A stretch of DNA of 33,885 nucleotides from a virus: the IMG/VR virus record IMGVR_UViG_3300027733_000133, positions 1 to 33,885 of that record; one strand, 5' to 3'. Of this stretch, positions 4,655-11,420 are shown one piece after another. The notes under the pieces were generated by a model. It was not told the origin of the DNA. It ran no database searches and saw only the letters and a list, made by a program, of their open reading frames with translations. Numbering within the stretch: the stretch's first letter is position 1; every line of letters starts with the position of its first letter. The position numbers were made by a program, and so were the translations under genes.

Positions 4655-5164
4655 ATGTCAACAATATACGAACTGTCCCAAGAGCAACAAGACTTATTAG
4701 ATGCTTTATTTTGGGATGATGAAGACGAAGTATCGCTACACAGACTTGAAACAATACGCGGAACAGTAGAACAAAAGCTTCAATTCTTATCTACTCTTTA
4801 TGCAGAGCAAAAAGCCAATGCTGATTTGGCTATTGAGACTTTAAAGATTGCAACTAAAAGACTTAAGGCTCAATCAGATCGTGCTGAAAAGGCAAGGGAC
4901 AGATTAAAAGGTTTTATCCTTAACACAATGCTAACTTTTGAAGTAAAGCAAGTTAAGGGCGAGGTGTGCAACTTGTCTTACTATTACCCTGCTGCATCAC
5001 TTAAGTTACTAGAAACTTTAGACATCGCTAATTTGCCTGACAGCTGCAAAGAAATCATAGAGACAGTCAAAATAAACAATGCAGAGATAAAAAGAAGATT
5101 AGGCGAAGGCGAAGAAATAGAAGGCGCGTATCTTGTAAAAACGGCATCACTGCGGATGTCATAA
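4655..5164 (+). CDS. Siphovirus Gp157-like protein
   Basis: A 169-aa protein with the Gp157 architecture: a short N-terminal YELSQEQQDLLDAL segment, a long charged helical coiled coil (about 35-90), then a C-terminal beta region with LPDSCKEI. Gp157 was first described in streptococcal siphophages, where it was linked to phage resistance phenotypes; in many phages it sits in the replication module, as here. Its mechanism is unknown. It overlaps the helicase start as TAATG, implying coupled translation. AAGGA precedes the ATG. Confidence 0.75.
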   Translation: MSTIYELSQEQQDLLDALFWDDEDEVSLHRLETIRGTVEQKLQFLSTLYAEQKANADLAIETLKIATKRLKAQSDRAEKARDRLKGFILNTMLTFEVKQVKGEVCNLSYYYPAASLKLLETLDIANLPDSCKEIIETVKINNAEIKRRLGEGEEIEGAYLVKTASLRMS

Positions 5165-6831
5165 TGAAAAAGACGCTGCGCTATTATCAAAACGAAACGT
5201 GTCAAGAAATAGCAAAGTCATGGGCGCGTAAAGAGCGCCCATACGCAAGCGTTATGACTGGACTTGGCAAGAGTTTAATATTTGCCGCTCTTACAAAATA
5301 TGGATTAAACAAAGGTTATAGAGTATTGCAACTTGTGCCAAGACTGGAACTGGTAGAGCAAAACAGAGCCGAGACATTAGCTTATATTGACGACAAGCGC
5401 TTAGTGGGTATTGTTTGCGGGCAACTTAATAAAAGCCAAAACAAACACCAAGCCGTTATTGCTATGGCTTCATCATTCGTAAACAAACGAGCAATTAGTG
5501 GAGTGTTTGACATCCTGCTCATTGATGAGTGTCACAGGATGAAGCTGTGCGGCCTAGATGGTCAGCGTGGTATTTATGAAAAGATTGTCACAAGCCTATT
5601 AAGACTTAACCCAAACATGATGATAGCTGGCCTGACCGGAACGCCTTACAGACTAGATCAGGGCGAACTGCACGAAAAGAGCCACAAGACACTGCCTTTC
5701 TTTACTCATAAAGTTTATGACACATCCATCTATCCAAGCATAAAGCGATTAATTAATGAGGGGCATTTATCCCATGTTGAAACCTTAAACACAAGCGTTC
5801 ATGTTGATTTAAACAACGTTAAAATGTTAGGAGGTGACTATAGCAAAGATGATGCAGGCGTAAAATTTGACGCTATTATAGACAATGCCGTGGATGATAT
5901 GCGCTATCAGTTTGAGGCCAACGACATCAAGACCGCTATTATATTTTGTTCAACATTAACTAATGCCAAGCACATATTGAACAAATGGAATGACGATAGC
6001 ACCATGCGTATTGTGTGCGGTGATGATGCTATTTGCACTAAACAACAACGTAAGGCCGCCATTGACTGGATAAAGAATGGTACTGGTTGCCGTTATATAG
6101 TTAATGTGGATATATTGGCAGAGGGCTTTGATTTTAAGGCTTTAGAGTGTTGCGTGCTAATGCGAGCTACCAAGTCAGCAGTGCTAATGGTGCAAATGGT
6201 AGGCAGGATTATCAGGCCGCATGATGACAAAGAACATGCTTTCTTATTAGACTATGGCACAAACATAGAGCGACTGGGTGAGATAGACAACATTATTATG
6301 CCTAAAACTAAGATGCGAGCAGGAGACGCGCCTAAAAAGCTTTGTGGTATTAAGGACTGCGGAACAATTAATATTTTGTCGGCTAAGAAATGCAAAGAAT
6401 GTGGCGCAGAATTTATAAGCGAGTCAGAAGATGGTTTATATACGATGAGAACCAAGGCGCAAGCACTAGCAATAAAACAATCATTAAGCACTAATTATGA
6501 GATAAACAGCATTAGTTATGAGCTGGCGTATAGTAAAAAAGACAGCATAGAAATGATTAAAATGAAGTTTTACGGTGCTAATGGCGGTGAGATCCACACG
6601 CATTATTTGTGTCTTGATCACAAAGGTTTTGCTGGAGATAATGCTAAGCGGTTTTTTATGAGTCTGTTTAAAAACGCTAAAGACTTTTATAAGCTTGGAA
6701 ACCTTATTACATGTCAAAACGCTTTAATACTCTTGACCGATGCACCTCACTTTTTTAAAGAATTTTTATCTATTGATCTTGTTGAGGACGGTAAGTTTTT
6801 TAAAATTGTTAGAATGGAGTTTTCAAAATAA
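5164..6831 (+). CDS. SF2 DEAD/DEAH-type helicase with zinc ribbon
   Basis: A 555-aa superfamily 2 helicase. Motifs in order are motif I MTGLGKSL (31-38), motif II DECH (121-124), motif III-like GLTGTPYRLD, and motif VI QMVGRIIRP. A C-terminal four-cysteine module follows (CGIKDCGT and CKECG), probably a zinc ribbon. The arrangement resembles RadD/YejH-type helicases found in phage replication modules. It is probably an ATP-driven DNA-unwinding or branch-remodelling enzyme in recombination-dependent replication. It overlaps the Gp157 stop at its start and is followed by the VRR-NUC nuclease, a common pairing. Confidence 0.88.
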   Translation: MKKTLRYYQNETCQEIAKSWARKERPYASVMTGLGKSLIFAALTKYGLNKGYRVLQLVPRLELVEQNRAETLAYIDDKRLVGIVCGQLNKSQNKHQAVIAMASSFVNKRAISGVFDILLIDECHRMKLCGLDGQRGIYEKIVTSLLRLNPNMMIAGLTGTPYRLDQGELHEKSHKTLPFFTHKVYDTSIYPSIKRLINEGHLSHVETLNTSVHVDLNNVKMLGGDYSKDDAGVKFDAIIDNAVDDMRYQFEANDIKTAIIFCSTLTNAKHILNKWNDDSTMRIVCGDDAICTKQQRKAAIDWIKNGTGCRYIVNVDILAEGFDFKALECCVLMRATKSAVLMVQMVGRIIRPHDDKEHAFLLDYGTNIERLGEIDNIIMPKTKMRAGDAPKKLCGIKDCGTINILSAKKCKECGAEFISESEDGLYTMRTKAQALAIKQSLSTNYEINSISYELAYSKKDSIEMIKMKFYGANGGEIHTHYLCLDHKGFAGDNAKRFFMSLFKNAKDFYKLGNLITCQNALILLTDAPHFFKEFLSIDLVEDGKFFKIVRMEFSK

Positions 6832-7566: not shown

Positions 7567-7594
7567 TTTACTTTTATACTCATAGGTTTAAAAT
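7567..7594 (+). promoter_or_regulatory. Candidate promoter for the accessory region
   Basis: TTTACT (7567-7572), 16 bp, TAAAAT (7589-7594). The -35 is identical to that of the early promoter at 2241. It stands 40 bp before the small gene at 7634 and upstream of the structured RNA, so it could drive both. Confidence 0.5.
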
Positions 7595-7633: not shown

Positions 7634-7771
7634 ATGTTTAAAGTAAGAATAGAATACAAAAGCGGAAAAATTGAATTTACAAAAATAGATATTTTAGAGT
7701 ATGCAAATGCTTTAGAAAGCTTAACAAAAGAAAAAAGACTAGTATCAATTAAAATATTATCAGTAGTTTAA
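7634..7771 (+). CDS. Small hypothetical protein (45 aa)
   Basis: An ATG with GGAG seven bases upstream opens a 45-aa frame rich in Lys, Ile and Glu (starts MFKVRIEYKSGKIEF, ends SIKILSVV). It has no membrane segment and no recognised family. It is followed nine bases later by the CCCC-AGAAAT-GGGG hairpin, the same order seen for the 2309 gene and its hairpin. The good ribosome site and dedicated promoter support it as real. Confidence 0.6.
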   Translation: MFKVRIEYKSGKIEFTKIDILEYANALESLTKEKRLVSIKILSVV

Positions 7772-7779
7772 AGACAAAG

Positions 7780-7793
7780 CCCCAGAAATGGGG
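7780..7793 (+). other. Conserved RNA hairpin CCCC-AGAAAT-GGGG (copy 2)
   Basis: Thirteen of fourteen bases are identical to 2534-2547 (loop G to A). It is positioned right after a small gene and just ahead of the structured RNA region. The downstream sequence is AAAAGGTTTTT, so at best it is a weak terminator. Confidence 0.5.
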
Positions 7794-7799
7794 AAAAGG

Positions 7800-7972
7800 T
7801 TTTTAGTGATACATCAAGTTTCCTAGACAGAATTCTTGGTGTATCAGTAAGAATCTAAGGCCGGAGTCCTCGTAGTCCGAAAAAAGATACGAGTCAGTCA
7901 AACCTATAACTTGCCTTAGACGCAGTACCCCACCAGCCTATTTAGCGTAGTAGGTTTGGTGGGTTTTTTTAT
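7800..7972 (+). ncRNA. Candidate structured noncoding RNA
   Basis: About 170 nt without a convincing ORF but with nested inverted repeats. Stem A is TGATACATCAAG (7807-7818) pairing with CTTGGTGTATCA (7835-7846), 12 bp with one G-U. Stem B is TCTAAGGC (7854-7861) with GCCTTAGA (7913-7920), 8 bp, enclosing stem C, CTCGTA (7869-7874) with TACGAG (7888-7893). It ends in a strong intrinsic terminator at 7929-7970. The 67-nt stem-B domain has a tRNA-like span but lacks a canonical anticodon arm and T-loop. It matches no ribozyme core I looked for (hammerhead, twister). Exact 5' end unknown. It could be a regulatory sRNA or a long structured leader for 7994. Confidence 0.6.
7929..7970 (+). terminator. 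Strong rho-independent terminator
   Basis: CCCACCA (7929-7935) pairs with TGGTGGG (7957-7963), and CCTA (7937-7940) pairs with TAGG (7951-7954); seven T residues follow (7964-7970). It ends transcription of the structured RNA and separates the replication genes from the downstream accessory operon, unless it is antiterminated. Confidence 0.85.
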
Positions 7973-11104: not shown

Positions 11105-11208
11105 CACAAGAAATAGAAGTTAAAGGATACTTTAACAAATTTGCAATAGTGATTTATAGTCTAGTGGTTGTATTCTTTGTTATAGGCTTTATTAGGTGGG
11201 GAATATGA
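11101..11208 (+). CDS. Tiny single-span membrane protein (35 aa)
   Basis: An ATG overlapping the previous stop opens 35 codons: a short charged N-terminus (MTQEIEVKGYFNKF), one hydrophobic helix (AIVIYSLVVVFFVIGFI) and RWGI. Its stop overlaps the next ATG. The organisation as a link in a chain of overlapping genes supports translation. Role unknown. Confidence 0.5.
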   Translation: MTQEIEVKGYFNKFAIVIYSLVVVFFVIGFIRWGI

Positions 11209-11420
11209 ATAAATACACAGGCGTTATTGCTTTTAAGATTGATATTAAAGCAACGGACAGAGAATCAGCGGAGCATATAGCCAAGCAAGCACTACCTCAC
11301 AGCTTTGGTTTTATGGACGGCAAAGGCGGCTCAGGTAAGTTTTTAAGGGGACTAGTGCCAGTTTTATATGAGCAAGAAGAACACGGTGATAAACCAGATA
11401 GTTATTGGCGCAACAGATGA
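11205..11420 (+). CDS. Small hypothetical protein (71 aa)
   Basis: Starts at ATG 11205 with AGGTGGGG upstream (GTG 11196 is less likely). It has an alpha/beta pattern with TDRESAEHIAKQAL, then a Gly-rich turn GKGGSGKF. The latter is not a P-loop: the spacing and the missing hydrophobic strand before it are wrong. Ends overlapping the hydrolase start as ATGA. No family recognised. Confidence 0.5.
   Translation: MNKYTGVIAFKIDIKATDRESAEHIAKQALPHSFGFMDGKGGSGKFLRGLVPVLYEQEEHGDKPDSYWRNR

Follow-up and report, generated by a model that had tools for sequence, protein, structure and literature searches.

The put RNA of phage HK022 mediates RNA-only antitermination; it is about 70 nt long, consists of two adjacent stem–loops, is present in two copies per phage, and acts in cis via the zinc-binding domain of the RNA polymerase β′ subunit (PMC9378689). 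The Racr RNA anti-CRISPRs are small phage RNAs that mimic the host CRISPR repeat (PMC10651486), and the phage-borne RNA families c4 antisense, Lacto-int, manA, and wcaG came from comparative genomics (PMC2864571). The control of early phage transcription by RNA only has so far been represented mainly by put elements of the HK022 type, and RNA-only counter-defence mainly by mimics of CRISPR repeats.

The RNA described here is located at positions 7775–7972 of the window, by which we mean the whole 33,885-nt stretch of viral DNA that was analyzed (positions 1–33,885 of IMG/VR record IMGVR_UViG_3300027733_000133). Like put, for which no phage protein is needed and the downstream genes need not be conserved, it belongs to phage RNAs that follow an early promoter within an early-operon leader. 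The layout of two stem–loops typical of put was not found; instead, an H-type pseudoknot lies inside a closing stem, with a long hairpin on its 5′ side, and because the structure differs the window RNA was not assigned to put. The description of put (PMC9378689) mentions no pseudoknot, while here the pseudoknot is the core, and antitermination through contact with the host machinery is put forward as a proposal. The Racr RNAs are likewise small phage RNAs, and a candidate solitary type I-F repeat adjoins one member of the family (L139/L146); unlike them, the pseudoknot RNA matched no CRISPR-DR family in the window or in other members, as compared with the repeats in Rfam, and the repeat mentioned above is a separate element. 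The c4 antisense, Lacto-int, manA, and wcaG RNAs are also carried by phages and known by covariation only, but their sequences and folds are different. A C4 antisense RNA (RF01695) at 11174–11256 (+) of L026, in a prophage of M. tundripaludum that also carries the pseudoknot RNA, is unrelated to it. H-type pseudoknots occur in frameshift signals, in SAM-II and preQ1-I aptamers, in the T-even gene 32 leader, and in type III antitoxins (ToxI). The RNA shares their S1-L1-S2-L3 layout and A-rich L3, while it differs in having no Rfam match, in its closing stem that follows a long hairpin, and in being non-coding and without a partner protein. It also differs from the RNA of ToxI-like type III toxin–antitoxin systems, which consists of tandem repeats accompanied by a toxin gene, as it is present in a single copy (two in L030 only) and no common protein is encoded downstream.

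The predicted folding energy of the window segment was −68.2 kcal/mol, compared to −42.7 ± 4.5 for shuffled sequences (z-score −5.65), and none of 200 shuffles equalled it. The corresponding z-scores of the relatives L009 and L002 were −5.7 and −6.6, respectively. The search of Rfam 15 that the preliminary description had proposed detected no family at or above the gathering threshold either at the window RNA or at the other members checked, and the best match below threshold in the window was at the level of chance. The view that the segment is not a canonical tRNA agrees with ARAGORN and RF00005, neither of which recognized a tRNA or a tRNA-like cloverleaf at the RNA; the tRNAs near L165 and L070 and inside L034 are separate genes and not the pseudoknot RNA. 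As had also been proposed, no ORF accounts for the segment: none of at least 50 aa lies within it, and a conserved reading frame is absent, as any one frame is open in at most 10 of the 30 members. The case of homologues with broken stems and a conserved frame, which had been named as evidence against an RNA, does not arise, since no frame is conserved. AAAAAAG is a slippery heptamer, and the GGAG upstream of it is similar to a stimulator; a −1 frameshift signal was nevertheless rejected, as several members read UUAAUAAG instead and no frame is conserved. The cores of the Pistol, HDV, hammerhead, and twister ribozymes had no support from Rfam, and an ENE-type triple helix of a U-run with an A-rich loop was discarded on the grounds that the strand opposite is not rich in U. 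Hence, the proposal of a new phage structured RNA holds with respect to the lack of an Rfam match, the compensatory changes in relatives, and the lack of a conserved coding frame, and the comparison shows that the segment belongs to an RNA family, new to Rfam, that is carried by phages of Methylococcales.

The stems of 12, 8, and 6 bp that had been noted previously were all present where they had been placed. The alignment by eye of the window with L002, L009, and L007 showed that the loop of a further stem S1 (CGGA/UCCG) contains CUCGUA, which pairs with the downstream UACGAG to form an H-type pseudoknot, and that this pseudoknot is enclosed by the 8-bp closing stem P1. The 6-bp stem, here named S2, had thus been correctly placed inside the closing stem, but S1, and hence the pseudoknot core, had been missed. 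In the first alignment (A2; 21 sequences) 98.1% of the cells were paired, versus 75.7 ± 2.0 in shuffles, and the covariation was 0.569 versus 0.151 ± 0.028. In alignment A3, with 23 sequences, 94.1% of the cells were paired (shuffles 68.6 ± 1.9), and the covariation was 0.616 (shuffles 0.154 ± 0.025; slid controls at most 0.059). In divergent members S1 is exchanged on both sides, from GGAG/CUCC to GGUG/CACC, CCGUG/CACGG, or CGUG/CACG. The relatives with exchanged S1 came from a search with a covariance model, built from A2, in which only S2 was modelled; as the model took no account of pairing in S1, these exchanges are an independent confirmation. The test for compensatory changes proposed in the preliminary description therefore gave a strong signal for three stems: the 6-bp one, the closing one, and the one that it had not reported. 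At the level of sequence, the fold with the S1/S2 pseudoknot inside P1 is demonstrated by paired mutations.

Around the small pseudoknot there are about 14 invariant nucleotides, and little or no variation is seen across the family in GUCC, the A-rich loop, and AGU; L165, a late and weaker member, deviates in L3. On the + strand, L1 spans the 6-bp S2 with 2–3 nt and the A-rich L3 spans S1 with 8 nt, which is the canonical H-type geometry, whereas on the − strand a 2-nt loop would need to span six base pairs. In A3, G-U wobble pairs are present in S1 and S2 on the + strand. The loop lengths and the G-U pairs identify the + strand as the functional one.

Table 1. Coordinates of the features of the window, and of one solitary CRISPR repeat in a related prophage
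Feature	Position	Strand	Basis and remarks
Possible sigma-70 promoter, TTTACT-N16-TAAAAT	7567..7594	+	9/12; 2 sites vs 2.5 expected in shuffles, weak; near-identical in L002
Small ORF, 45 codons, with ribosome-binding site	7634..7771	+	Sequence; between possible promoter and RNA
Hairpin T0, CCCCA-GAAA-UGGGG	7780..7793	+	Folds; directly 5′ of hairpin A
Hairpin A, about 21 bp	7797..7856	+	Folds; contains 7807–7818/7835–7846
P1 with pseudoknot, overall	7854..7920	+	
P1, 5′ strand of closing stem, UCUAAGGC	7854..7861	+	Family pairing well above cross-member control
S1, 5′ strand of pseudoknot stem, CGGA	7862..7865	+	Compensatory changes in A3
Loop L1, GUC	7866..7868	+	Invariant or nearly so in family
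S2, 5′ strand of pseudoknot stem, CUCGUA	7869..7874	+	6-bp stem noted previously; double changes in 5 of 6 pairs
S1, 3′ strand, UCCG	7876..7879	+	Compensatory changes in A3
A-rich loop L3, AAAAAAGA	7880..7887	+	A positions invariant in A3; later member L165 departs
S2, 3′ strand, UACGAG	7888..7893	+	Double changes in A3
CAGU after S2	7895..7898	+	Conserved; AGU invariant or nearly so
P1, 3′ strand, GCCUUAGA	7913..7920	+	Family pairing above control
Intrinsic terminator T1, ahead of next genes	7929..7970	+	Sequence and fold; 14 pairs (7929–7963) plus seven T; conserved in L009, L016, L022
Solitary type I-F CRISPR repeat	L139 1374–1401 = G045:C1:2318849–2318876	-	Rfam CRISPR-DR4; prophage early region

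The closing stem P1 pairs in nearly all members despite unrelated sequences, with a mean score of 22.6 versus 14.1 ± 0.5 when the 5′ strands were joined to the 3′ flanks of other members. In most members P1 directly abuts S1 with no linker. The constrained folds of 30 members showed a recurrent order: the short hairpin T0, the long hairpin A, P1 with the pseudoknot, and then either the terminator T1 or a ribosome-binding site with a start codon. The 12-bp stem noted previously is real, but it is only the upper part of hairpin A and not a stem standing alone. The scan of the members for terminators showed that in many relatives the T0 slot is occupied by a terminator-like hairpin with a U-run. 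The strong intrinsic terminator recognized in the preliminary description was confirmed in the window, and the statement that the RNA has its own terminator is true for the window group and for roughly half of the family, but not for the rest. In L143, L164, L024, L035, L007, and L148 a ribosome-binding site and a start codon follow P1 within 20–40 nt with no terminator between, so at the loci without a terminator the RNA belongs to an mRNA leader. A TGATGG-type strand in L024, L035, L143, L144, and L164 has two alternative partners, one upstream within hairpin A and one downstream within P1, and hence the two helices can exchange there.

Hairpin A is not a genome-wide repeat, as its matches were found at the RNA loci only. 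Its ends, TTTAGTGAT...ATCAGTAA, are conserved with a kept G-G mismatch in the window and in L009, L016, L022, L025, L032, L046, and L149; it is possible that they form a second protein- or polymerase-binding motif. Further structured stretches were seen near some members. In L064 and L024 a small common hairpin with conserved CGCACGAGACGCG is located 60–180 nt upstream of the pseudoknot, and its stem differs between the two, with GCCGC/GCGGC against AACGC/GCGTT. In L026/L151 and L023, about 80–160 nt downstream of the pseudoknot, ACCGGTGTGYTTACCGGGTGYAACCAGAAKCC is followed by a covarying stem with the loop CTGGGCAGTAA. At positions 4950–5500 of L030 the pseudoknot is present twice in tandem, each time after a repeated long hairpin GGAATACCACT...AGTGGTATTC.

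The search with the neighbouring nuclease identified L002, where this protein is 87% identical and the RNA copy is divergent, while an exact 16-mer from the RNA identified L009 and, in a different phage, L007. The pseudoknot pattern recovered many further members, some from IMG/VR contigs and others from genomes with the label Methylococcaceae or Methylobacter. Its remaining genome matches, scattered over unrelated phyla and mostly coding, were attributed to chance, as S2 was unpaired. Patterns without GGAGTCC gave no new members, every added match having failed S1 or S2 pairing, and hence the relatives with exchanged S1 were reachable only by the covariance model. Two matches of the model, in G011 and G022 (L140, L141), were rejected as coding chance matches in which the pairs are not kept. 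In total, 30 non-redundant members were found in phages and prophages of Methylococcales. Among 311 genomes of Methylococcales, the order to which G001 (M. tundripaludum) belongs, the second covariance model was positive in 14, whereas a sample of 368 further genomes from the same class, outside this order, gave no positive. Each positive genome has one copy, except G066 with two on separate contigs, and the regions inspected around these copies contain phage-type genes. The 13 related viral records that were searched whole also contain one copy each, except for the tandem pair in L030. The blastn search of the window region against 50,697 deposited phage genomes gave no match, and that of the L007 region gave matches to low-complexity repeats only. 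Directly upstream of the RNA, L007 encodes at 5048–5365 a protein with DGYGSGSG repeats in which nearly every residue is G, S, D, or Y. As every member search relied on resemblance to the core already known, the host range given here is a minimum; the covariance E-values are rough and the gene calls mechanical.

The helicase of the window has best matches of only about 31% identity and does not fix the host of the window phage, which we infer from family membership to be a member of Methylococcales. None of the clusters of neighbouring proteins covers more than 6 of 28 loci, so that no protein accompanies the RNA as it moves. The RNA is common to many viruses that infect methane-eating bacteria and are otherwise unrelated.

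In 26 of 29 loci the RNA shares its strand with the first gene called downstream of it, and two of the three exceptions resemble spurious ORF calls. Neighbouring early genes encode RecT, RecE, an RdgC-like exonuclease, Sak4, and a helicase. Judged from this gene order, the RNA is in most members located directly upstream of early phage genes and on the same strand. In L164, L144, L034, and L058 a TTGACA-type promoter is located about 60–130 nt upstream of the RNA, near an operator-like palindrome, and the genes upstream of the promoter are on the opposite strand; the site that follows this promoter and palindrome is the position of an early lytic leader. In several temperate phages the early promoter at this distance is a strong one and carries the operator-like palindrome. 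The window RNA is located mid-genome, after a small ORF and a weak predicted promoter. This promoter, already suggested in the preliminary description, is plausible, but such sites occur at chance frequency (Table 1). The slot on the 5′ side of the RNA is occupied by three unrelated small ORFs in the window (7634–7771), L009 (348–567), and L002 (4600–4697), with homologous sequence downstream. Such a slot in related phages is, by its sequence, an exchange point.

We tentatively favor, with less than even confidence, the explanation that the pseudoknot RNA is a cis-acting early-leader RNA, put-like in action but not put. While still being transcribed, the pseudoknot would bind to a component of the host transcription machinery, either RNA polymerase or a Nus-type factor, and this contact would let transcription continue past nearby terminators, which in the window means T1, and reach the early genes. 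If the RNA acts on the host machinery in cis, one would expect no protein partner to travel along, the downstream genes to differ, and the RNA to be confined to phages of a single host order. The action in cis on transcribing polymerase would fit best because of the leader position, the lack of a partner protein, the unlike downstream genes, the adjacent terminators, and the confinement to phages. On the other hand, in many members the terminator-like hairpin with a U-run is located upstream of the pseudoknot, beyond its reach, which argues against cis antitermination, and phages with the RNA as a rule have it once, in contrast to the putL and putR pair of HK022, which argues against a simple copy of the put model. 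The mid-genome place of the window RNA, behind a small ORF and a weak promoter, is a further point against this explanation. Other leader functions (attenuator, ligand sensor, or RNA stabiliser) fit the data almost as well.

The main rival explanation, which we regard as possible though unlikely, is a trans-acting early phage RNA serving as a stable decoy or sponge for a host protein, most likely one of a Methylococcales defence system. The restriction to phages of one host order, the presence in otherwise unrelated phages, the strong terminator in the window members, and the two tandem copies in L030 are consistent with such a decoy, as is a finding in the G045 prophage. There, a solitary CRISPR repeat of type I-F, which scores 44.7 bits with Rfam CRISPR-DR4, is located 100 nt downstream of the pseudoknot RNA on the same strand, and it differs by one base from the repeat of the array of G045 itself, which has 39 repeats and is 2.3 Mb away. 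RNA anti-CRISPRs are marked by such a match to the host array repeat (PMC10651486), which makes the solitary repeat a candidate for one and suggests that the pseudoknot leader can be a counter-defence locus, in one case in about 30. However, only this one of about 30 loci has an adjacent CRISPR repeat, the window RNA is unlike any CRISPR repeat in Rfam, the placement is nearly always that of an early leader, and about half of the members have no terminator. Among the roles raised in the preliminary description, the members without a terminator favor a cis-regulatory leader, and an sRNA or a decoy is less favored.

A riboswitch-like or protein-sensing 5′ leader, which would control the downstream gene by attenuation or translation, seems rather improbable. 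It would explain the roughly 14 invariant nucleotides around a small pseudoknot, the 5′ leader position with a terminator or ribosome-binding site next, and the TGATGG-type strand with alternative partners in five loci, but the downstream genes vary between phages, the window shows no obvious pairing that would make P1 and T1 mutually exclusive, and the RNA was found only in phages and prophages. More doubtful still is a structured 3′ UTR of small early genes with a non-regulatory role in mRNA protection or in processing by RNase III. In other phages this enzyme cleaves long hairpins, and in the window group the RNA comes after three different small ORFs and ends in T1; this explanation does not account for the invariant GUCC and AGU or for the leader position in other phages. 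A DNA element with a folding single strand (a single-strand initiation, packaging, or recombination site) is very improbable, even though replication and recombination genes are close by and the inverted repeats are long, as the G-U wobble pairs in S1 and S2 on the + strand, the loop lengths that fit an RNA pseudoknot on one strand only, and the nearly constant orientation along the downstream early genes argue against it.

The RNA probably either directs the expression of early viral genes or counters a host defence. We see about an even chance that it represents a new class of protein-independent pseudoknot phage RNA, which reprograms the host transcription machinery or neutralizes host defence at the start of infection, and which unrelated phages of methane-oxidizing bacteria have passed on to one another by exchange. 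The core of about 40 nt is small enough for direct testing. A family with a proven pseudoknot and no protein partner, shared by phages that have only their host order in common, would add another RNA-only system to those known, and it would provide a handle on the little-studied phages of methane-oxidizing bacteria.
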